DNA of 36,142 nt from an uncultured Pseudomonadota bacterium (GTDB lineage Bacteria; Myxococcota_A; UBA796; SXON01), in contig CAIMSU010000084.1 of NCBI GenBank assembly GCA_903844155.1, positions 1 to 36,142 of the forward strand. The letters are read 5' to 3'. Shown here piece after piece: positions 2,830 to 18,903 of the stretch. How positions within the stretch are numbered: position 1 is the stretch's first letter; each line of letters starts with the position of its first letter. Position numbers and translations under genes: made by a program. A model generated the notes under the pieces. The model did no database searches and was not told the DNA's origin. It was given only the letters and a program-made list of their open reading frames with translations.

Positions 2830-3143
2830 AGGTCCGGGTTGGGAGCGCCCCCTCGTCGAGGCCGGCCCAGCCGGTGATCTCGGACGAGATCCACAGCGCG
2901 TCGTTCGCGTTCGATCCGCAGACCGGGTTGTCTTGGGCGGCGCTCTCCGCGCGACCGAATACTGACCCTACTCTGCGCGGCCTCTGCCGTCTGTCGCAGA
3001 ACGGCGTGGAGAGCTGGCGGTTCGAGGACACCCTGGCCTCCCTGGAGACCTGGCGGCTGCGGGGGGCGACGGTCGAGCTGCGGGGCGACGTCACCGGTAC
3101 CGACTGGTCCGTGTTCCGCGTCACGTACCCGAGCGCCGGGTGA
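2826..3143 (+). CDS. Small hypothetical protein, translationally coupled (105 aa)
   Basis: I chose the GTG at 2826 because it overlaps the upstream stop as GTGA; another in-frame GTG lies at 2811. The 105-residue product has a central stretch with Trp and acidic residues (VESWRFEDTLASLETWRLRG) and ends VFRVTYPSAG. It is beta-rich, with no recognisable domain. Its last 23 bp overlap the end of the convergent methyltransferase gene, an arrangement typical of tightly packed phage genomes. Confidence 0.45.
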   Translation: MKVRVGSAPSSRPAQPVISDEIHSASFAFDPQTGLSWAALSARPNTDPTLRGLCRLSQNGVESWRFEDTLASLETWRLRGATVELRGDVTGTDWSVFRVTYPSAG

Positions 3144-4122
3144 ACGTCGCCGGGCTCGCCGCCAGGAGCGCTCGGCCGAGGGCCTCCGCGACGGTCGGCG
3201 GCACCGCGTTGCCGATCTGCCGGTAGACGCTCTCCTGGCTGCCTCGCCACGGGTAGTCCGGCGGGAACGCCTGCAACGCGGCGCACTGGTCGACGGTGAG
3301 GCGTCGGATGCCAGTCGCCAGCCAAAGCACGTCGGACGCCCGATCCGGCCCGCCGCGGGTCTTGCCCGCCGCAGTGGTCCCGAACATCGCGTCGCCGCGC
3401 GTGCCTTTGGACTCGGTCGTGGTCAGGGTGGGCGCGGGCCTGGCCAGCAGCTCGGGCCGGCTGGTGGCAAGTGAGCCGAAGTGTCGCCGCTCCACGCGCA
3501 CGTCCCCAATCACGTCGCCCATCGCGTTCCACGGTCGCCGCCCCCTGATCCTCCCGAGCACCGGGTCCGCGTGGGTCGGCTCCGGCCAGCGGAACGGACG
3601 CGGTCCTGCGACGATGAACACGCGCCGTCGTCGTTGCGGAACGCCGAAGTCCGCCGCATCGAGGATGCGCCACGACACCTCGGCGAAGGTCGCACGCAGC
3701 TCGCGGAGGACGACATGCTCGAAGTAGCAGCCCGGGCAGTCGCGCGGATCGACGCCGGCGTCGCCCGCGTGCGCCCGTCGCGCGTGCAGGGTCAAGCCGA
3801 TGACGTTCTCGCCGATGAACCAGGTCGGGCGCACCCGCCGGACCGTCGCGATCGTCGCCGGCCAGCCGTTGCGCTCGTCGGCGGCACCGAGCCGCTTCCC
3901 GGCGACCGACCACGCTTGGCAGGGGAAGCTCGACCAGACGAGGTCGGCGGCGATGTCGAGCCCTGCGTCCCGAACGTCGCCCAGCACGCTCGGATGCCCG
4001 GCGGCGAGCGCGGTGGCATGCACGTCCGCATCGCGCTCGATGCAGCGAAGGACGTCCAGCCCCGCCTCGATGAGCCCGGTGGTCGCGCCGCCCGCGCCCG
4101 CGAACAGCTCCAGGACGCGCAC
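3121..4122 (-). CDS. dcm: DNA (cytosine-5-)-methyltransferase
   Basis: 333 residues with the ordered C5-methyltransferase motifs. Motif I is FAGAGG near the N-terminus (AdoMet binding). Motif IV is SSFPCQAWS with the catalytic Cys. Motif VI is the ENV triplet in GENVIGL. Motif VIII is QRRRRVFIV, motif IX RRLTVDQCAALQAFP, and motif X QIGNAVPP. The target-recognition region lies between VIII and IX. It should methylate C5 of cytosine in a short site that cannot be predicted here. The start is GTG at 4122, six bases after the stop of the 97-residue gene, so it is read with the fibre gene upstream. No restriction endonuclease is adjacent, so it is an orphan, as often in phages, where it protects against host restriction. 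Confidence 0.93.
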   Translation of the reverse strand: MRVLELFAGAGGATTGLIEAGLDVLRCIERDADVHATALAAGHPSVLGDVRDAGLDIAADLVWSSFPCQAWSVAGKRLGAADERNGWPATIATVRRVRPTWFIGENVIGLTLHARRAHAGDAGVDPRDCPGCYFEHVVLRELRATFAEVSWRILDAADFGVPQRRRRVFIVAGPRPFRWPEPTHADPVLGRIRGRRPWNAMGDVIGDVRVERRHFGSLATSRPELLARPAPTLTTTESKGTRGDAMFGTTAAGKTRGGPDRASDVLWLATGIRRLTVDQCAALQAFPPDYPWRGSQESVYRQIGNAVPPTVAEALGRALLAASPATFTRRSGT

Positions 4123-4450: not shown

Positions 4451-5983
4451 CTACGCGTGGTACTTGACGGTGTACGTGTCCCCGGAGCCGACGAAGCTCA
4501 CGCCGCTGAACACCTGGAGCGTCGTCCCGTTCAGCCGCCACTCGCCCTCGTTCGCGGGCGTGCCGACGACGCGCGTGAACCCGGTCTCGACGCCGTTCCG
4601 CATGAGCACCTGGTCCTGGATCACCTGGGTCGCGCTCGCGGGCGTCGCGCCCACGGTCCGGCTGTTGATCGACCCTGCGTAGGTCCAGCCCGTGTCGCCG
4701 TACTCCTCGCGGGTGCGCGAGAACGCGAGCTTGGTCGGGGTGACCCCGCCGTCCGCGAGCTGGGGCGTGCCGACGCCGCTCGCGGCGATGCCGGCGATCC
4801 CTTGCCCGTCGAACGCGAGGGAGGTGCCGTCGAGCTTGACCTCGACGCCGTTGGCGGTGACGCCGATGCCCTTGTTGGCGTTCGCCTTCACGCCGACCTT
4901 CGAGGCGGTGACGACGAGGCCGGGGTTGGTGGTCGCGAGTGCCAGATCGAGGCCCGCGTTCGAGAGCGCGAAGGGTGCCGTGTTGGCGACTTTGATCCCG
5001 ACGCCGTTCCCGCCGTTGGGCGCCTGCAAGCCGCCGTTGTTGTCGAGCTTGATGCCGAGGTTGTTGCCCTGGATCTGCATCGAGTCGGCGACGACGTTGA
5101 CCGTCAGGCCGCCGCCGGAGAGCCCGATGGCACCGTTCGTGTCGCGCCCGACCGACACGTTGTCCGCACCGACGACGAGCGAGGCGTCCGCGGCATTGAA
5201 GTTGATCGTGTTGCCGGTTTTGGTGAGGCCGGAACCGGCCTGAAAGATCCCGGCGCTGCTGAACTGCGTGAAGCCGAGCGCGGTGGTCCCAACGGTGATC
5301 GTCCCGTCGGTCGAGAGCACCCAGCCCGTGTCGCCGTAGGACGAGCCCTGCTCGACGAAACAGTAGGCGCCGGGGGTGACGTTCCCGCCCGTGCCGTCGA
5401 AGTCCGACGCACGCGACCAGGAGCCGCTCGCGGAGACGTAGATGCCGTTCTCCGAGGCCGTGGTCTGCCCCATGGCGAGGACGCGCTTGCCGGCCGGGAC
5501 CGCCTGGCCGTCGATGGTCTGCGCTGCGCCGGAGAGGGTGATGTTGGCGTCAGCGGCGACGAACACCGAGCCCTTGACGTCGAGACCGCTGATGACGGCA
5601 TCGACGTACGCCTTCGTCGCCGCGTCGTTCGCGCCCGAAGGTGCTGCGAGCCCGACGACCTTGTGGTTATTGGCGTCGAGGTTGGCGCTCAGCGTCCCGC
5701 GCAGGTTCGTGAAGTTGAAGGCGGCGTCCTGGTTGAGGGAGAGCGGCGAGCCGTCCCCACCGAGGAGCGTCGTGCCGTCCACGGCAGACACGGCGATCTG
5801 GAACTTGCCATCCCCGTCGGTGTCGATGCCGGCGCCGACGAGGTTGGCGGAGTCCACCGCGAGCGCGAACGCTCCGGTGCGGAGCAACCCGAAGGCGGCC
5901 ATCGCTGACGCGATCCGCAGGCCACCGCTGCTGTCAGGCTCGAGGTTGTTGGTGAGACGGAGCTGGGACGCGGAGATGGTCAT
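4451..5983 (-). CDS. Phage tail-fibre-like protein
   Basis: 510 residues from ATG at 5983 (MTISASQLRLTNN). The open frame extends further upstream, but that part is Arg/Ala-rich and non-coding in character. Strong fibre signatures are present: AATKAYVDAVISGLDVKGSV, then a strand-rich block with ENGIYV, SRASDFDG, YCFVEQG, DTGWVLSTDG and TTALGFTQFS. This block is recurrent in tail fibres of many phages. The middle is a Gly/Asn-rich shaft with repeated VGV/IGIK strands. The C-terminus (GTPQLADGGVT PTKLAFS ... VKYHA) resembles the fibre-tip region that follows a 'G.I....L' repeat. It heads a fibre / small protein / methyltransferase operon. It shares the fibre theme but not the 49-residue repeat of the other fibre gene. 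Confidence 0.75.
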   Translation of the reverse strand: MTISASQLRLTNNLEPDSSGGLRIASAMAAFGLLRTGAFALAVDSANLVGAGIDTDGDGKFQIAVSAVDGTTLLGGDGSPLSLNQDAAFNFTNLRGTLSANLDANNHKVVGLAAPSGANDAATKAYVDAVISGLDVKGSVFVAADANITLSGAAQTIDGQAVPAGKRVLAMGQTTASENGIYVSASGSWSRASDFDGTGGNVTPGAYCFVEQGSSYGDTGWVLSTDGTITVGTTALGFTQFSSAGIFQAGSGLTKTGNTINFNAADASLVVGADNVSVGRDTNGAIGLSGGGLTVNVVADSMQIQGNNLGIKLDNNGGLQAPNGGNGVGIKVANTAPFALSNAGLDLALATTNPGLVVTASKVGVKANANKGIGVTANGVEVKLDGTSLAFDGQGIAGIAASGVGTPQLADGGVTPTKLAFSRTREEYGDTGWTYAGSINSRTVGATPASATQVIQDQVLMRNGVETGFTRVVGTPANEGEWRLNGTTLQVFSGVSFVGSGDTYTVKYHA

Positions 5984-9841: not shown

Positions 9842-12694
9842 CTACGCACCCGCCAGAAGCGACTCTTCACGGTCGGCATGCACGATCAGCCGGCGTCGCA
9901 GCGACGGGAACCCCGAAGGGTCCCGGAGGAGGGCTCGGGTCTCGGCGAGCAGCCCCGCGTGCTCGCCGATGAGTTTCTGCGCTGCGGCGCTGGCGGACCC
10001 GAAAAGCGCCGGGAACACGCTCGTCTCCTCGGCGGTGAAATGGGCGACCAACTCGGGGAGCAGCACTCGCTTGACCTCTGCGGCGATGGTTGCCGGGTCG
10101 GCCGCGATCCGGGCGAGCAAGGCGTGGATCTCCGCGTGGTCGTCCACCAGCCAGCGCGCTGGGTCCTGACCACGGGCAGGTGCGGGGCACCGCTCAACAA
10201 CATCGCCCCGACGCGCTCCGCCCACCATCCCGAGCAGGGTGGCCTCGTTCCGCGCCACAAACGCGCGGATCTCCGCTCGCGTCCACCCCGGCGGCGGGCT
10301 CGCGATCACCGCGTCGACGACGAGCTTGTAGAACTGGAGCCCGTCCCGGATCGGGTGATCCTGCGGCTGGCTGCGCGCCAGCCGGTCGCGCTCGCGGGTC
10401 ACCGCTGCGAGTTCACGCTTCGCGTCCGCCGCCCTCCCGCGCAACTCGCCGAGCTGCTGCTCCAGCTTCGCCACGCGGGAGGCGTCCCCGGCGTCCGGCA
10501 GCCGCAAAAGCTTCGCGACGAGCACCGCGATCGCCGGGAGCAGATGGGCGGTTGCGGCTCCCAAATCTTCCCTTCTGGCGACAAATTCTTCGTCGTGGCC
10601 GTCTCCCATTTTTCCATCAAGGTGTGTCAATTCGTGAACCGCAACGCCGTGAAGGAACGCCGCGAGCGCCAGAGGCCGATCCCGATGCGCCTTCGCCACC
10701 TGCGCGAACCGATCCGGGTGGATGAACACGAACCGGCGCCCGCCGGGCCGCTCGATGGCCTCGGCGACCACGTTGTCGTCCAGCACGAAGCCGGGCCGGA
10801 ACGAGCGGCGCATCCGGGCCTCGGACGCCACGAGTCGCAACGTGCCGTCCCAGGCGAGCAAGTACGGCACCCACTTCGCGACGTTCTTCTTGAAGCGGTA
10901 CGCGCGGGCTCGGTCGTAGGTCTTCTTCGCGATCCGCATCCCGGCGAATCGTCCAAACGGATTCTTTACCCTTCGTTTCTCGGCGGCATCGAGGGAGCGC
11001 GCCCACTTCGGGGTGAGGGCGTCCAGTGCGCCAGTGGCCCGGCTGACGGCAACCGCCTGCATCAGCCCGCCGCCCCCCGGCCCGAGCGCCTGCTCCGCGG
11101 CCCGGTCGATGGCGGCCTCGACGGCCTGGGTCTGCCAGCCATCGAGGTTCTGCCCGGCCTCGGCGCGCCGGAGCGCCTGGTCCACCTGCTCGGTCACGAC
11201 GACGACGCGCACACCGCCCGCAGCCTTCCCGGCGTCGTCCGCCTCGGTCAGGACGCGGCGCAGGACCCGTGCGGCGGCCACGTCGGACAGGGCTGCGATG
11301 TCGGGCTCGACCCTCTCTTTGTCCGCCACGGCGGCAACGCCAGGCGGCAAGACCCAGCCGCGATCCGGCGCGTCCCCCTCCGGGACTGCCCTCGTTCCGC
11401 GCGGTGCCGCAGACGCGACCGGCTCGGCGACCCCGGCGTACTGGGCCTGTGCCGCGTAAAAATCGGTGATCCCGCCCGCTGCGTCCGCGACGGCGGCGCG
11501 CACGTCCGGGTCCTGGAACGCCAACGCGAGCTGGTCGGCGATGGCATCGCCCTCCTCACCGCCGTCGTCTCCTTCGGGATCGATGAACTCATCCTCCTCG
11601 CCTTTGCCCGTGCTTTCGTTCTCGCGCTCGACCTCTTCCACGAGATCGGCGAACGTCCACGCCGCCTGATCGTCGAGCGCATCCCGCGCCGCATTGAAGG
11701 GGTAGCCCCGCACCCCCGGCCGGAGTTTTGAAGAAAAATCCACGACCACATCGGCTTTCAGCCCGCCCCGCTGGGCCGGCATGACCGTTTGTAGCAAGCC
11801 GTTCAGGCGCAAATAGTACGCTCCGCCGCGGTCGCCGGGCGGACGGCGGTAGGCGCGCACGACCGCAGTCGTGCCTACACCCCAGCTCCCCTCGACGGTG
11901 ACGCGCGAGCCACCCCGGCGGCTGAACATCGGCGTGACCTCGCGCCCGTTGAAGACCAGTGTGATCCCCGGCAGATCGTTCCCTGCCAACAGCTCGCGCA
12001 GGCGGTCCTCGATGTCGACGTACACGCCGCGGGCGCGGCTCCAGTACCGCACCAAATCGGGATCCACGTCTGAGAGATCCAGGCGCAGGCCCTGGCGGTA
12101 GGGCGCGTCGAAAATCTGCACCTCCTTGTCCATGCCGTCCGCGACGGCGAGGTTGTCGCGGGTGTGCATGCGCCACCGAAAACCCCGGCTTGTTCCTAAG
12201 ATCACCGCCTTGGCGACGCCGAACCCGCCCGCCGCTTCGCCCGAATCCGCAGCGTCCCGCTTGCCGCTCTCGCCGATCACGAGAAACTTTTTCAGGATGG
12301 TGTCGGCGTCCATACCCACCCCCGAATCACTGTACGAAAGTCTGCGCTCTTTGGCGTCCCACTCGACCTCGAACCGCGCATCCTCTGGCTTTATGCTCCG
12401 TAATCGCAGCGCAGAACGAACTGAGTCCACGGAATTCTGCAACGCCTCCCTCGTCGCCAGCCACGGGAGGTCGCCTGACTTGTAGACCGACTTGGTCAAC
12501 AGCGCCCACAGCATGTTGCTGTTGGCCCCCGGTCGGCCGGACGCCTTGGCAACGGCCTCCATCGCCTCGCGGATTTCGCGGCGCGCCCCGAGCTCGCGCC
12601 GGAGCGCGTCCCGGTCGATGCCGGCACGGCCGACCGCCCGGAGCGATCGACCTACGGAGGGCATCGGCTGGGAGCAGGGACACGGCTTTTGCAC
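9842..12694 (-). CDS. GHKL ATPase / HEXXH metallopeptidase-like / hemerythrin fusion protein
   Basis: 950 residues from GTG at 12694 (GGAG five bases upstream); ATG at 12664 would give 940. Numbers here follow the ATG. A GHKL (Hsp90/MutL/histidine-kinase) ATP site is visible: N-box ATREALQNSVD (Glu73, Asn77), G1 box DSGVGM (113-118), G2 box GEAAGGFGVAKA (142-153). A linker with a very acidic stretch (347-373) follows. At 677-681 is HELTH, with a further His690 in GHDEEF, a zinc-peptidase-like site. A coiled coil spans about 728-765. The C-terminus (840-935) has a full hemerythrin ligand set: His843, His875-x3-Glu879, His902, His929-x3-Glu933. The gene lies downstream of the helicase/methylase, lysozyme and small protein genes on the same strand. 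Substrate and partners are unknown, and I know of no named family with this three-part order. Confidence 0.8.
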   Translation of the reverse strand: MQKPCPCSQPMPSVGRSLRAVGRAGIDRDALRRELGARREIREAMEAVAKASGRPGANSNMLWALLTKSVYKSGDLPWLATREALQNSVDSVRSALRLRSIKPEDARFEVEWDAKERRLSYSDSGVGMDADTILKKFLVIGESGKRDAADSGEAAGGFGVAKAVILGTSRGFRWRMHTRDNLAVADGMDKEVQIFDAPYRQGLRLDLSDVDPDLVRYWSRARGVYVDIEDRLRELLAGNDLPGITLVFNGREVTPMFSRRGGSRVTVEGSWGVGTTAVVRAYRRPPGDRGGAYYLRLNGLLQTVMPAQRGGLKADVVVDFSSKLRPGVRGYPFNAARDALDDQAAWTFADLVEEVERENESTGKGEEDEFIDPEGDDGGEEGDAIADQLALAFQDPDVRAAVADAAGGITDFYAAQAQYAGVAEPVASAAPRGTRAVPEGDAPDRGWVLPPGVAAVADKERVEPDIAALSDVAAARVLRRVLTEADDAGKAAGGVRVVVVTEQVDQALRRAEAGQNLDGWQTQAVEAAIDRAAEQALGPGGGGLMQAVAVSRATGALDALTPKWARSLDAAEKRRVKNPFGRFAGMRIAKKTYDRARAYRFKKNVAKWVPYLLAWDGTLRLVASEARMRRSFRPGFVLDDNVVAEAIERPGGRRFVFIHPDRFAQVAKAHRDRPLALAAFLHGVAVHELTHLDGKMGDGHDEEFVARREDLGAATAHLLPAIAVLVAKLLRLPDAGDASRVAKLEQQLGELRGRAADAKRELAAVTRERDRLARSQPQDHPIRDGLQFYKLVVDAVIASPPPGWTRAEIRAFVARNEATLLGMVGGARRGDVVERCPAPARGQDPARWLVDDHAEIHALLARIAADPATIAAEVKRVLLPELVAHFTAEETSVFPALFGSASAAAQKLIGEHAGLLAETRALLRDPSGFPSLRRRLIVHADREESLLAGA

Positions 12695-13058: not shown

Positions 13059-14027
13059 TCAGGAACGGGCGACGGGCGTGTCGCGGAGTTTTTGGTCGAC
13101 CAGCGGCTCGTAGGAGCGGGTGAGGATGAGATCCCACAGGTCCCACGGCCCGGTGACGCCGTGCCAGACGGGGCCGGGCGGCACTTCGCGAACCAGGGCA
13201 ACGCGCTGGGTGCCAACGAGCTTGAGGTTGACCTCCCCGGTGCCCGGCGCGACCTGCACCCACGCGATCGTGTGGTCGTCGTTGTACCAGGGGCTTGGCG
13301 GTGCCGTGGCCCGACGAAACTTGGCGGCACACAACCAGCCGTACTCGGCCAAGACCTGGATCTCGGAGGTGGGGCGCGGATGGCTGCCCGAGGCGTACAG
13401 CGCGACGAGGCGCTGGGCGGGGCCCGTCGCACCCGAGACGCCCTGATGGACGGTCCGGTCGTAGCAGACGACGAGCGCCCTTTCGGACGACACGCCGAGC
13501 AGCTTGGCGATGGCGACCGCCCCCTGCATGTGCGCACCGCGCTTGGCGAGCTCGCGCTGCGCCCCCTGGAACGCCGGGATCGTGCCAGCCGCCACGAACC
13601 GATCCAGCCAAGGCGGGTCCCAGAGATTCGCGCCGTCGACCGGGGCCAACGCGCGCGCCTGGACCGCGGCGAGCATCCGGGCGGCGCTGCCGGGACCGCC
13701 GAACGTCGCGTCGAACGTCGACGGGTCCGCGCTCCGCATCGCCCCGAGCACGTCAGAAAGCCCGCCGCCGCGCTGGGTCCATTGCAAGATGCCGTAGCTG
13801 ACACCCTGTCCGTCGAGGTTCCGCTGCACGCTTGAAAAAGTCCCTTCGTGCGCGGCGGTGTGCGCGATGAGGGTGTCCATCCAGTCTGTGAGCGTGTCGG
13901 CCACGAGAACTCCAGCGCGCCGAACCTCGACGCGCGAACGAGGGGAAAGGGCGAGCGCCAGACCGCCGAGCGCGACGGCGCCGAGGCCGATGGCGACCGC
14001 GAGGGGGGCGGCGCTACTTCGCGACAT
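13059..14027 (-). CDS. Membrane-anchored lysozyme/endolysin-like protein
   Basis: 322 residues from ATG at 14027, overlapping the end of the helicase gene by 14 bp. Residues 7-27 form one hydrophobic anchor (APLAVAIGLGAVALGGLALAL). The region 58-97 (AAHEGTFSSVQRN, then DGQGVSYGILQWTQRGGGL) matches the lysozyme-fold pattern of phage endolysins and chitosanase-like muramidases, with Glu61 as likely catalytic acid and Asp72 nearby. A later YDRTVHQG also recurs in that superfamily. The C-terminal ~120 residues have no recognised domain. The enzyme probably cleaves peptidoglycan glycan strands, either for lysis or as a virion/conjugation-associated muramidase. The N-terminal anchor favours export as a signal-anchor protein. 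Confidence 0.65.
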   Translation of the reverse strand: MSRSSAAPLAVAIGLGAVALGGLALALSPRSRVEVRRAGVLVADTLTDWMDTLIAHTAAHEGTFSSVQRNLDGQGVSYGILQWTQRGGGLSDVLGAMRSADPSTFDATFGGPGSAARMLAAVQARALAPVDGANLWDPPWLDRFVAAGTIPAFQGAQRELAKRGAHMQGAVAIAKLLGVSSERALVVCYDRTVHQGVSGATGPAQRLVALYASGSHPRPTSEIQVLAEYGWLCAAKFRRATAPPSPWYNDDHTIAWVQVAPGTGEVNLKLVGTQRVALVREVPPGPVWHGVTGPWDLWDLILTRSYEPLVDQKLRDTPVARS

Positions 14028-17000
14028 GGGCCAGCTCCTCGGCGTCGTCGGCGTCCGGCTCACCCGACAGCAGGTTGCGCGGGATCGACCGACCCCACCA
14101 CCAGCGCCCGGCCTCCGCGAGCTCGCCGAACTTGATCCCGGAGCCCCCCGCTTGGGCGAGAAACGCCGCCCATCCGGCCTCGGTGGGCGGGAGGATGTCC
14201 ACGCCCGCTGTGCCCGAAGCCGCGCCGGCGTTGACAATTCGGAGCCCCATGCGCGAGACCACCGGGATCTTTTGGGCCTGGGCGTTGTAGTAGCTCACCT
14301 TCGCGAGCGCACTGACGACGACGTCGGCCACCTGCAGCCATGTCCGCTCGACCCAGGCGTCAGGGGCGTGCTGCCACGCCATGCCCGGCCAGTCGCCTGA
14401 GTACCGCAGCTTGTCGTTCGCGATCTGCGCGACGGCGCGCACGGTCGCCGTCTCCTCGTCCGCCGGGAACGTCGCGCCGTAGTTTTGCGGCTTGAGTGCG
14501 GTGAACTTGGCGTCGTCGGATTTGGTCAGCCGCCACGCGCCCTCGCCCGCACCCCGCATCGCGATCTGCCCGTCCTTGGTCACCCGGCCGAACTCGATGT
14601 AGTCGATGCGTGAGGCGTTCCAGGCGCTTGGGACGCCCACCCGGAGGCCCTCGTAGACGGGGCCGCCACCCTCGGCGACGAGCACCGGTTTTTCGCGCAC
14701 GACGCCAGCGCTGGATGCCCACGGCCATGCCTCCACGTTGACCCGGGTGAGGTGCTTGAGCCGCTCCTCGGCCTCGCCCCGGAGGCGAGCCGCCTCGACC
14801 CCGTCCCGCGTGCGCTCGGCGTTGCGGAAGCGTGCGTTGATCGCGCGCAGGAGTTTCGATGCCTCGGTCGCGATCTTCTTCTTGGCCTCTGTCTCCCGCT
14901 GGGCGCGAACGGCTTCGAGCCGGGCGCGGGTCTGCTCCGGGTTGCGGGAGATCAGAAGCAAGATTTCTTCCGGTCCCATGTCCATTTGTGCGCCGGGGTT
15001 GTTCGTGTCCCGGTCCTGCCCTTTTATCAGTTGCGTCATCCACGCCCGTTTGCCCTGGATGAGGTTGAACCGAAGTCCATCCTGGCTTATTCGCGCAAAG
15101 TAGTAGTAGATCGCGATGGCTGAGAGCGTGTTGCCCTGCCGCACGCCGCGTCCGTTCCGCTGCTGGAGCGTCGCGGGCTCCCAGGGAAGATCGAGGTGGT
15201 GGATGGCGCAGGTCCGCGTCTGCAGATCGATGCCTTCGTAGGCGATCTGGTTCGCGATCACGACGTCAAACTTGGGTGCGAAGCCCTCGTCGGCGTCCCC
15301 GTTGAACTCGCGTGCGATGCGCTGGCGGTCGGCGGCGGCGGGTGCGACCTCGGCGTTCAGCACGCCGACCCGATCCTCGCCGATCCCCTCGCTGACCAGC
15401 ACCTGCTTGATCCAGCGGTGCGCCGCCACGTTGTCCACGAACACGATGTGCCCGCAACTCCGGTTCGTGAGGATGCGCTCGGCCATCGCCTCGAACTTGG
15501 GAGAGGACGGGTCCGCGACCTGATCGGCGTTCTTCCAGGTGTAGCCCTCATCGAGGTTCGCATGGACAGCGACGAGCGCCATGCGGGCGAGCAACCCCAG
15601 GATTTTGGCCTTCTGGCTCGGGTCGTCCGACTTGAGCGCGGCCTCGATCTCGCGGACGTACCGATCGTATTTTGCGTCTTGCGCAGGATCCATGTCCACT
15701 TCGACCATCTCGACCTTGGGCTCCGGGAGCTTCAGGCCGACGTCCTCGGCCGTCTTGAACTCGCCGTACCGCAAGATCGTGTCGCGAAGCTCGTGGAGGT
15801 TCTGGAAGCCGACAACGGCCCCGCGTTCCTCGACTTCCATCGTCGGGGTGACGACCGGCTTGATCTCGATGCGCAGGTACCGGTCGATGAATTGTTCGGG
15901 ATCGCGGATGCCCATGCGACGCCAGGCGTCCGGGTCGACGTACTGGATGAGATTGTAGAACTCCAGCGGGGAATTCTTGGCGGGTGTCGCGGACAAGAGC
16001 ACGATGCCGGTGCCGCCTGTCCGCTTGCGGACGGCCGCGCACCGAAAGTCGAGCTGCCACGCGCGCTTGGAGCCGTCGCCGGGGTTGCCCATGAACCGGG
16101 GGACGCCGCCTTCGCGGTCTTCCGGGAGGTACAAATTCTTGTAGTTTTGAGCTTCATCCACCAGAAGAAGGTCAACGCCGATGTCGTCCCAGGCGATCCC
16201 GGGGTCATACTCCCAGCCCTCCGCGAGCTCCATCTGTTGCGCGACCCAGGCGGCGATGCCCTCGCGCAGGATCGCCTCGTCCCGCTCACTCAACTTCTTT
16301 CGCTTCGCGGCGTTCCGACGACGCAACGCGACCTCGCGCTGGATGGCCTCGGTCTTCTCGGCGTAGGCCCTGACCGCCTTCTCGTTCATGCGCGTGCGGC
16401 CGAGTGCGGTGTAGGTGAGGACGACGACGTCGTACTCACCCGCCTGGAACCGGGTCCATTTTTCGGCGCGCTCCTGCGGGGTGTCGGTGTCGCTCGTGGC
16501 CAGGCCCTTGCGCTCGCCCCGCGAAATCGTCTTCTTCTTCGAGCCGATCACCGCGACCCGGTAGTCGGGCAATACGCGCTGGATGTCGGCGACCCACTTC
16601 CAGACGATGGAGTTGGGGACGAGCACGACCGGGCGCTTGCACCAGCCCTCCTGGCGCGCGCGCGCCAACGTGGCGATGCCCGTGTACGTCTTGCCGACGC
16701 CCACGTCGAACGCCAACAAGCCGCCGCGATTCGCCAGGACCCGCCGCGCCCCAGAAACCTGGTGCGGGTGCAGGCGCGGGCCGTCCTTCTTCCAGCGTGC
16801 GATGGTCAGCGGCTCGGCGGTGTAGGTCGGCGCGATGTACCCCCGGAACTGCCGGTTGTAGGCGTGTTCGATCGCGAGCCGTCGCACCGGCGTGGCCCCG
16901 GCCCAGCCCTTGAAGCTGGCGTCCCACTCCAGCGCCTTCTTCATGCGGATTTTGTCGATGTCCTTCTCGTTGTCGTCGTCGAACTTTTTCGAGGGAGCGA

Positions 17001-18666
17001 ACAGCGTCTTGTCGTGGTTGATCCAGCCGAGCAGCAGCAGCACCTCGGGGTGCATCTCCCCCGCGTTGTCCTTCTTCGACATCTGGTCGTACTGCCAGCC
17101 CTTTGGCGCGAGGAGGCCGCCCTGACGCACGAACTGGACGGGGTCGTACCCCGTGTAGGTCGCGTTCACCCACTCGGCGACGAGATCGAGCGGCAACCAG
17201 CCCTGGCGTGCGCTCACCCCCTCGATGTCATCGAAGATCGCGGGTTTCAGCACGTTGAGCAGCCGGGCCACCTGGGTTTTGGCTTGCGCGTCGTCCGGCC
17301 TCGCCATTGCCCGATCCATCTTCGGCCAGAGCGACCCCGACAAGTAGACTTCGGAAGGGAACAGTTCGGTAAAGGTGTCGCCGTCGAGGCACCAGCCCGC
17401 TGCCAGGACCTTCGCTCGGATCGTGTCCGGTCGGTACGGTCCGCCCAGACCCGCGTGGTAGTCGACCAGCTCAGCCAAGGCGAGTCGTCGGGCGACGCGA
17501 AAGAGGTGCTCGGCCTGGGCGACGACGTCGTCGGGCCGGCCGGTGAACCGGGGCTCGATCCGCGGCGGAGCGCGGCGCAGGCCCTCGATGAGGTGCCCGG
17601 CCTTGTCGAATGCCGCTAAAAAGCGCTCGGCTCCGGTGTTGCCCGTGCGTGCGAGCTTGACCAGCTCGACCCGGCCGTGCGGGTTGCCATTGGTGGCGAG
17701 CCAGGCGTTGAGCCCCGCGTTCAGCTCCGGCCAGAGCATCGGCGGCTCCTCAGCGTTCTCGGCGGCGACCAGCGCGAGGTAGCTGTCCACGCGGAGCCCG
17801 AGCAGCACGGCGCTGGCGAGCTCGCGTGACAAGTCGGTCACCTCGGCGTCGGCCACCCGGGTGACTCCGATGCGACCGGCGGGGGCGGTGCCGTCGGCCG
17901 CTTGCTTCGAGGGGAACGCGATGATCCGACAGTCGCTGCAGATCGGGCGCTCGACGAGATCGGGGAGCCGCGTGAACTCGCCCTGCACTTGATACCCCCA
18001 CCGGGGCTTGGCGGTCTGATCGTCCTCGCCGTGGTCGTCGCCGACCTCGCGCCCGAGGATGTGCCTCGGGAATTCCTTGAAGTAGCCGCCCGCGACGATG
18101 GCCTCGTCGGCGCTGTCGATCGCGTCGAGCTGCCCACCGCGCGCGCGGAAGAAGAGCACGTCCGTCACCAGCATCGCGCCGGGGAAGATGGCCTCGCGGC
18201 GCTTCTCGTTGATGCTCGGGAGACGGAACGCGGCGGCCAGGTGGTGCCGCTTCAGCACTTTCTCGCGCAGCGCGACGAACTGGGCGGTCCGGCTCGTCAG
18301 GAAGCCGCCAGGGATGACGAACACGCCCAGCCCGTCGGACCCCAGCAGGTCCAATCCGCGGCGTAGAAAGTAGTGATACGCCATGCGCTCTCTGTACGCT
18401 CGGTCGGGATCTTCGGCGATCGACCCGCCTCGGATGCCATACGGCGGGTTCGACACGACCAAACCCAGCTTTCCCTGTGCCGCCGGTCCCTTTTCACGGA
18501 CCCACCGCTCGAACGGCGCCAGCATCAGGTCCACGTCCGGGCGAAGAACGTGGAGCATCCGGGCGGAGAGCTCGGACCATTCGACGGCGTGCCACGTCAG
18601 GCCGGGCACGGACTCGAAGGCGCGGAGGAAGCGGCCGATGCCGGCAGACGGCTCCAGAGCATGCAC
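14014..18666 (-). CDS. Adenine-N6 DNA methylase / SNF2-type helicase fusion (DarB-like)
   Basis: 1550 residues from GTG at 18666. The N-terminus is an N6-methylase: motif I LEPSAGIGRF (4-13), motif IV NPPYG (73-77), then YHYFLRRGLDLL and VIPGGFL, as in type I/DarB enzymes. The middle (~300-620) is unassigned. A superfamily-2 helicase follows: Walker A DVGVGKT (653-659), DEAQN (836-840), SATPAKN (891-897), helicase-C VFVDN, IAYEGIDLQ and motif VI QQRNGRGVRQG (1167-1177). The C-terminal ~370 residues include a charged coiled coil. Such methylase-helicase giants occur in large phages and conjugative elements, and P1 DarB is the best-known relative, protecting DNA from type I restriction. The GTG start omits the FYTP motif, which lies in frame upstream (see the separate entry), so the gene may be longer or damaged. 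Confidence 0.88.
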   Translation of the reverse strand: MHALEPSAGIGRFLRAFESVPGLTWHAVEWSELSARMLHVLRPDVDLMLAPFERWVREKGPAAQGKLGLVVSNPPYGIRGGSIAEDPDRAYRERMAYHYFLRRGLDLLGSDGLGVFVIPGGFLTSRTAQFVALREKVLKRHHLAAAFRLPSINEKRREAIFPGAMLVTDVLFFRARGGQLDAIDSADEAIVAGGYFKEFPRHILGREVGDDHGEDDQTAKPRWGYQVQGEFTRLPDLVERPICSDCRIIAFPSKQAADGTAPAGRIGVTRVADAEVTDLSRELASAVLLGLRVDSYLALVAAENAEEPPMLWPELNAGLNAWLATNGNPHGRVELVKLARTGNTGAERFLAAFDKAGHLIEGLRRAPPRIEPRFTGRPDDVVAQAEHLFRVARRLALAELVDYHAGLGGPYRPDTIRAKVLAAGWCLDGDTFTELFPSEVYLSGSLWPKMDRAMARPDDAQAKTQVARLLNVLKPAIFDDIEGVSARQGWLPLDLVAEWVNATYTGYDPVQFVRQGGLLAPKGWQYDQMSKKDNAGEMHPEVLLLLGWINHDKTLFAPSKKFDDDNEKDIDKIRMKKALEWDASFKGWAGATPVRRLAIEHAYNRQFRGYIAPTYTAEPLTIARWKKDGPRLHPHQVSGARRVLANRGGLLAFDVGVGKTYTGIATLARARQEGWCKRPVVLVPNSIVWKWVADIQRVLPDYRVAVIGSKKKTISRGERKGLATSDTDTPQERAEKWTRFQAGEYDVVVLTYTALGRTRMNEKAVRAYAEKTEAIQREVALRRRNAAKRKKLSERDEAILREGIAAWVAQQMELAEGWEYDPGIAWDDIGVDLLLVDEAQNYKNLYLPEDREGGVPRFMGNPGDGSKRAWQLDFRCAAVRKRTGGTGIVLLSATPAKNSPLEFYNLIQYVDPDAWRRMGIRDPEQFIDRYLRIEIKPVVTPTMEVEERGAVVGFQNLHELRDTILRYGEFKTAEDVGLKLPEPKVEMVEVDMDPAQDAKYDRYVREIEAALKSDDPSQKAKILGLLARMALVAVHANLDEGYTWKNADQVADPSSPKFEAMAERILTNRSCGHIVFVDNVAAHRWIKQVLVSEGIGEDRVGVLNAEVAPAAADRQRIAREFNGDADEGFAPKFDVVIANQIAYEGIDLQTRTCAIHHLDLPWEPATLQQRNGRGVRQGNTLSAIAIYYYFARISQDGLRFNLIQGKRAWMTQLIKGQDRDTNNPGAQMDMGPEEILLLISRNPEQTRARLEAVRAQRETEAKKKIATEASKLLRAINARFRNAERTRDGVEAARLRGEAEERLKHLTRVNVEAWPWASSAGVVREKPVLVAEGGGPVYEGLRVGVPSAWNASRIDYIEFGRVTKDGQIAMRGAGEGAWRLTKSDDAKFTALKPQNYGATFPADEETATVRAVAQIANDKLRYSGDWPGMAWQHAPDAWVERTWLQVADVVVSALAKVSYYNAQAQKIPVVSRMGLRIVNAGAASGTAGVDILPPTEAGWAAFLAQAGGSGIKFGELAEAGRWWWGRSIPRNLLSGEPDADDAEELAHVAK

Positions 18667-18903
18667 CGTGCCGGCGTCGTGCGGGAGGCTCGGGACGAGC
18701 GGGGCGACGAGACGGGCGATTTCACGAGCTACAACGCTTGGAGTATAGAATTCATGGGAGAGTTTCGTTTTGCGTAATCGAAAGGATCCCCGTTCAACGT
18801 AGACCGCGAGGTTTCAAGGCCAGAATCCGGGGCGAGGGCGACGCCGGATGAGGCTCGCGGCTTCCGGGCCGAGGTCGCGCAGCTCACGCACGGGGGCTTT
18901 CAT
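18667..18903 (-). other. In-frame upstream extension of the methylase gene, interrupted by TGA
   Basis: Reading the methylase frame upstream of GTG 18666 gives 49 sense codons back to 18813. They contain ERGSFRLRKTKLSHEFYTP and VVAREIARL, the FYTP segment expected just before motif I in N6-methylases. No ATG, GTG or TTG occurs in these codons. They are preceded by TGA at 18814-18816. Upstream of it the same frame stays open, with ATG at 18903 encoding MKAPVRELRDLGPEAASLI, also plausible for this family. Possible readings are a nonsense mutation, a sequencing error, a non-canonical start, or recoding; I cannot decide between them. Beyond it, 18904-19121 shows no gene I trust. Confidence 0.6.

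Follow-up and report, generated by a model that had tools for sequence, protein, structure and literature searches.

The window, a stretch of 36,142 nucleotides, carries on its minus strand a frame of 950 codons whose product brings together a GHKL ATPase with its transducer, an HExxH...GH site, and a hemerythrin domain (Table 1). The minus strand is free of stops from 13804 down to 9842, and the GTG at 12694 is the likely start of the protein because it gives the N-terminal CPCSQPxP that is present in the paralogs. A sequence-only reading of this DNA had placed the gene on the same strand as a methylase-helicase gene and a lysozyme-like gene, and we found both of them there. The window copy has no tagged cytosine methylase, and its DarB-like gene has lost the first 135 codons, including those for a terminal tag described below, through an insertion. 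The minus strand at 93-1691 and 4451-5983 also encodes tail-fibre-like (DUF2793) and head-decoration-like (PHROG 2647, E 1e-41) proteins. These genes lie downstream of the GHKL gene with the C5 methylase, were not found in the other loci compared, and are possibly the remains of another prophage.

Table 1. Features of the GHKL gene and its neighbors, in window coordinates
Feature	Position	Strand	Basis or remark
Whole reading frame, 950 aa, GTG start	9842..12694	-	GHKL ATPase, metallopeptidase-like domain, coiled coil, tag, hemerythrin
Conserved N-terminal KPCPCSQP (Cys pair)	12665..12688	-	Common to relatives
GHKL ATPase and transducer domain, about residues 60-357	11624..12517	-	Model, structural matches, motif boxes
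Metallopeptidase-like domain, residues 575-740; HELTH 687-691, GH 699-700	10475..10972	-	Model, structural matches
Long helix / coiled coil, residues 737-775	10370..10486	-	Structure prediction
Terminal tag, diverged copy, 28.6 bits, about residues 785-826	10217..10342	-	Tag profile
Hemerythrin HHE domain, residues 845-948; this copy only	9851..10162	-	Pfam
Small conserved protein, cluster c2, 94 aa	12739..13023	-	Cassette clustering
Lysozyme-like, N-terminal hydrophobic segment, cluster c4	13059..14027	-	Sub-threshold GH46 match
DarB-like adenine methylase / SNF2 helicase, cluster c3, broken	14014..18762	-	Without residues 1-135, including tag
End of second, inserted element cutting DarB-like gene	18763..18835	-	Outer limit approximate
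C5 cytosine methylase, untagged, displaced	3121..4122	-	c0 relative, about 40% identical; membership uncertain

Conservation and predicted folds of the ATPase-protease core

The GHKL ATP site that had been recognized from the letters is complete, with an N box (REALQN, residues 82-87), a G1 box (DSGVGM, 123-128), and a G2 box (GGFGVAKA, 156-163), and it is accompanied by an Hsp90-like lid (FLVIGESGK, 137-145); most residues of the boxes and the lid are invariant in 19 aligned relatives. The HELTH site and the GH nearby were likewise found where the sequence-only reading had seen them. An HExxH motif is expected by chance 0.013 times in a protein of the same composition; H687, E688, H691, G699, H700, and E702 are all invariant in the alignment of 19, and H700 would be the third metal ligand. 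The GHKL and metallopeptidase-like domains are kept together in every one of the aligned sequences (19/19). Measured against the ortholog from the same genus (genome G003), dN/dS was 0.12 in the ATPase part, 0.09 in the protease domain, and 0.44 in residues 741-782, the least constrained stretch of the protein. Purifying selection acts on both the ATPase and the protease part, and the proposal of an ATP-dependent switch joined to a protease-like domain is supported.

The HATPase_c profile match is weak on its own (E 0.06), and the mean pLDDT of the whole-protein model was 62, with the ATPase part much better. Structure prediction nonetheless recovered the GHKL fold: residues 70-357, approximately, resemble Hsp90/TRAP1, topoisomerase VI-B, MORC2, and MutL (VIA Z 14-16). 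The long helix predicted after the protease domain fits the coiled coil that had been suggested. When the HExxH domain was modelled by itself (pLDDT 87), its best VIA matches, all of moderate Z, were Wss1 (8.1), selecase (7.9), and 6mdw (7.6), a DNA-protein crosslink repair protease entry whose title refers to protease-dependent crosslink repair. Foldseek with the same model returned no significant match (best E 0.04), a PDB profile search with the domain gave nothing convincing, and Pfam gave the domain no match at a trustworthy score and no SprT or WLM match in any of the 19 members. Because Foldseek and Pfam gave no such match, we describe the domain as one that is predicted to work in the manner of SprT/Wss1-type gluzincins, without assigning it to that group. 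The best-known Wss1/SprT proteins act on DNA-bound proteins. By analogy with the known families, the whole protein likely forms an ATP-driven dimer clamp and carries a zinc site. In the part of the literature that we covered, we found no GHKL-hemerythrin or GHKL-metallopeptidase protein of this kind.

A hemerythrin domain in one copy

The hemerythrin domain proposed from the letters was recovered by Pfam above the gathering score (PF01814, E 4e-7, 30.9 bits against 25.3), and its His and Glu motifs are present and would form a putative di-iron site. In the model, where the alignment of this region held no relatives, helices are predicted at low pLDDT. The domain occurs in none of the 27 relatives whose 3' end was covered (six in the window's genome and 21 others), and all but one of these (L063) end in the 44-residue tag. 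The G003 ortholog, which is 84% identical over 526 residues, stops six residues past the end of the match, just after the tag, and the 81% DNA similarity of the window to G003 ends at the same place. Paralogs in the window's genome with a covered 3' end finish just past the point at which the window protein enters the hemerythrin, and a search of 24 related genomes found no close relative of the hemerythrin. Homologues that keep all three regions were thus not found; in the relatives the domain has not become a separate neighboring gene, and is absent altogether.

These results do not support a di-iron or oxygen sensor as a working part of the family. The three-part effector of the sequence-only reading does not hold, and the conserved family is an ATPase-protease pair. 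A hemerythrin that would sense oxygen or redox state and so control the other two domains appears very improbable: although the fused frame has no break and the domain keeps its His and Glu motifs and a coding-like GC pattern, it is missing from all relatives and from the ortholog, and the joint is a clean breakpoint. So the hemerythrin would have been joined after the two species parted, or the join is an assembly error. An error in this draft genome of 375 contigs, or translation of the hemerythrin from a start of its own, would account for a joint that falls exactly where the ortholog ends and for the in-frame GTG between tag and hemerythrin; the frame is continuous, however, and codon composition is similar on both sides of the joint, and we regard this alternative as unlikely. 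In the overall explanation that we prefer, set out in the last section, a recombination event would have joined the hemerythrin to one copy, and the domain would lie outside the mechanism of the family.

A mobile cassette with a shared terminal tag

Gene clustering around the copies revealed a cassette with the order DarB-like adenine methylase/SNF2 helicase, lysozyme-like protein, small protein, C5 methylase, and GHKL protein. Several small unknown proteins, often membrane proteins, are encoded before the DarB-like gene, and a serine resolvase often follows the GHKL gene. Pfam confirmed SNF2, Eco57I, C5 methylase, and resolvase in the cassettes, and the lysozyme-like assignment comes from a sub-threshold GH46 match. 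Methylase/SNF2 and lysozyme-like genes therefore recur beside the homologues in conserved order, and this link, which had been noticed in the letters, is the more informative clue. The DarB-like protein (about 1700 aa) matches PHROG 10089 (E 8e-74), is 27% identical to P1 darB over a third of the query in tblastn, and also matches DarB-like proteins of Thermus and Burkholderia phages. Variable cargo lies between or beside the core genes, and includes metal efflux, type I restriction-modification, Lamassu/ABC-3C, and a recurrent primase-helicase. We recognized no capsid, terminase, portal, or secretion genes among the core genes, and a PDB profile search with two possible virion proteins gave nothing convincing.

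The cassette adjoins genes for small membrane and possibly beta-rich proteins, which would be in keeping with a protease that matures the element's own particle or large proteins, its cutting timed by the ATPase. A role of this kind is predicted for the metallopeptidase domains of phage polyvalent proteins, and zincin-like peptidase domains in large phage and plasmid proteins, including one from the P1 darA operon, have been proposed to process polypeptides (PMC5512222). However, the closest fold of the domain is that of Wss1, SprT, and the minigluzincins, and no precursor protein or cleavage site was identified, and such a maturation role seems improbable to us.

The ATPase-protease core is encoded at 10 places in the window's 8.1-Mb genome, where the other copies are 57-77% identical. 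A first search of 38 genomes gave relatives in 15, and among 284 genomes taken from the phylum 18 had one, mostly from the same family and order, with Nannocystis pusilla DSM 53165 as the one named isolate; this patchy distribution suggests mobility. Two genomes of different genera, G008 and G009, carry element DNA that is 94-97% identical over about 33 kb, whereas their recA regions (recA was chosen as the chromosomal comparison, rpoB being absent from one genome) are 76% identical, and because of this difference we read the element as recently transferred between the two genera. In a tree, the copies of the window's genome fall in three separate parts and are mixed with those of other genera. 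The window and G003 copies are 80-81% identical in DNA, and because this divergence resembles that of the recA region (79-81%), the window copy fits a long residence in the genus. Searches for the GHKL protein gave one weak partial match in phage records, two weak GHKL-only matches in plasmids, and nothing in IMG/VR.

Several related loci deserve separate mention. L038-L040 (G008) and L049-L050 (G009) hold a near-identical element whose cargo comprises metal efflux, Lamassu, and type I restriction-modification. Metagenome contigs titled Klebsiella pneumoniae (L073 and L076) carry an element of myxobacterial type, and their titles are probably wrong. The cultured strain of N. pusilla has three related elements (L126, L127, and L128), all of which encode a DarB-like protein together with small membrane proteins and possibly beta-rich ones; in two of them the DarB-like protein is tagged, is 2663-2898 aa long, and is accompanied by an M23-like peptidase, and one has the GHKL gene.

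The gene content also raises the question of whether the cassette is a host defence system and not part of a mobile element. Methylases together with an SNF2 helicase recall parts of DISARM-type systems, single-component PADLOC models match, and type I restriction-modification and Lamassu/ABC-3C adjoin the cassette in one element. Against this, the PADLOC matches are to single proteins only and none involves the GHKL protein, and the lysozyme-like and membrane genes, the high copy number, and the transfer between genera fit an element; we consider a defence system quite improbable.

About 44 residues are common to the C-terminal end of the GHKL protein, the C-terminal end of the C5 methylase, and the N-terminal end of the DarB-like protein. 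A tag profile built from two seeds and run over 937 genes, which are not independent because some loci overlap, found this stretch in 38 GHKL, 17 C5 methylase, and 23 DarB-like proteins and in one other. When five whole genomes were scanned, the strong matches, in the part of them for which the gene was inspected, were all on the three element enzymes, and in Nannocystis the tag also stands at the N-terminal end of two more DarB-like proteins. A PAPS-reductase-like protein (function assigned by eye) opens with a tag-like stretch (profile E 5e-6), as does, by eye only, a DUF3560 protein; the two proteins lie at L088 13831-15012 and L077 12493-15372. More cargo types may exist besides the three enzymes.

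In phage P1, 30 residues from the start of DarB are enough to bring a reporter into the capsid (PMC9024508), and we suggest that the tag would similarly be a delivery signal. By eye, however, the tag shows no similarity to the P1 DarB N-terminus, and we therefore limit the parallel to position and possible role, and do not extend it to sequence. An end domain common to several proteins could just as well serve for docking, and the GHKL protein could then be a rIIA- or MORC-like ATPase clamp that acts in the element-carrying cell to block superinfection or host defence, the tag serving to join the three enzymes into one complex on DNA and not as a travel label. In rIIA proteins, a GHKL ATPase is combined with a C-terminal domain that varies, and these proteins have been discussed as counter-defence factors (PMC7824862), and MORC2 is among our structural matches; but the RIIA match is very weak (PHROG 612, E 0.85), and the tag of the DarB-like protein is N-terminal, where P1 DarB keeps its capsid signal. 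We judge this clamp to be rather unlikely.

Core genes of the element are repeatedly interrupted. At least six copies of the DarB-like gene in the window's genome are broken at precisely the same site, CTCATTCA/TGAATTC; the interruption is seen in the window (18763-18835), L009 (near 16980), L101, L111, L112, L113, L114, and L120. Sorted by gene halves, copy C263 has a 3' half cut at the site, as the window does, and six further loci have 5' halves, some of which may pair as two halves of one copy. Uninterrupted copies are found in L119 and in other genomes. The DNA that breaks the gene carries inverted ends that resemble each other (GGAGAG...GTAAC) and, by eye, encodes a serine-recombinase-like C-terminus, and could be a nested element that targets the DarB-like gene. 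In two further GHKL copies, DNA with inverted repeats of about 140 bp interrupts the gene at residue 183 in P0001 numbering (L016 8433-8571, L010 1-139, and the ends of L017 and L012), where the contigs break; a search of the assembly located the L016/L010 repeat at no other place. A split near residue 299 divides the G003 ortholog. Other insertions have thus struck the core genes of the element repeatedly. An Rfam search of ten loci found nothing, which sets aside a known RNA family, such as a self-splicing intron, as the cause. With the DarB-like tag lost and no tagged cytosine methylase, the window copy may no longer work in the way that we propose for the family. The simpler view that this copy is just decaying is weakened by its low dN/dS, though its DarB-like partner is broken.

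Proposed mechanism and comparison with known systems

The explanation that best fits the results as a whole is that the protein would be an ATP-gated, SprT/Wss1-like protease that travels with the DNA of the element and clears host proteins; we hold it with slightly less than even confidence, chiefly because the delivery vehicle is unseen. The results show that the gene belongs to a conserved family, that it is one copy of a core gene of a Myxococcota element that moves horizontally and is present in many copies, and that the enzymes of the element share a tag. By its motifs and model, the product is a GHKL ATPase of the Hsp90/MORC/MutL type; its C-terminal half holds a predicted minimal SprT/Wss1-like gluzincin, and the protein would use ATP and zinc. 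The tag, at or near one end of the GHKL protein, the DarB-like helicase-methylase, and the cytosine methylase, would direct them to one place, and the tagged enzymes would most likely accompany the element DNA into the cell that receives it. After entry, the DNA would be marked by the two methylases, and the ATP-gated clamp-protease, cooperating with them, would strip bound host proteins from the incoming DNA as its substrates.

A broader proposal, which we offer tentatively as the less probable of the two, is that an undescribed, amplified Myxococcota element, virus- or conjugation-like, marks several DNA enzymes, a new ATP-gated GHKL-SprT-like protease among them, with a portable 44-aa delivery tag that can stand at either end of the cargo. 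The tag-like stretches on the PAPS-reductase-like and DUF3560 proteins suggest such a general cargo code. Phages and plasmids send protective enzymes along with their DNA, and the directing signal is known in few cases; a tag that occurs on three enzymes, in many copies, and in several genera makes the question of what directs delivered enzymes directly testable. If active, the GHKL-protease pair would be an ATP-gated counterpart of the DNA-protein crosslink proteases, used by a mobile element.

Among known systems, P1 Dar resembles the cassette, whose largest protein is DarB-like and has a short tag at its N-terminal end, the position of the capsid signal in P1 DarB. P1 Dar differs in that the tag is here common to three enzymes, whereas the authors of the P1 study found no consensus among Dar N-termini (PMC9024508), and in that the Myxococcota element adds the GHKL-protease and lacks recognized capsid genes. 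T4 rIIA shares an N-terminal GHKL ATPase, a different C-terminal part, and a mobile-element setting (PMC7824862), but the sequence match is negligible (E 0.85), and the C-terminal part is here a conserved metallopeptidase-like domain.

The ATPase and transducer are predicted to share the fold of Hsp90/TRAP1, topoisomerase VI-B, MORC, and MutL, but identity in the alignments is about 10-20%, and the ATPase-transducer is the only domain shown to be in common. Wss1/SprT and the minigluzincins (selecase) likewise have an HExxH and a further conserved His, and they match the modelled domain at moderate Z (7.3-8.1 over 85-110 residues), but identity is 10-15%, no Pfam match is trustworthy, and the domain is here fused to a GHKL ATPase. 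Polyvalent proteins of phages and plasmids are mobile-element conflict enzymes, DarB and metallopeptidases among them, that are thought to be delivered with DNA (PMC5512222; Iyer et al., 2017). The main text of that account does not mention GHKL, Hsp90, or hemerythrin (PMC5512222), and the functions that polyvalent proteins combine in one long protein are here distributed over separate tagged proteins.
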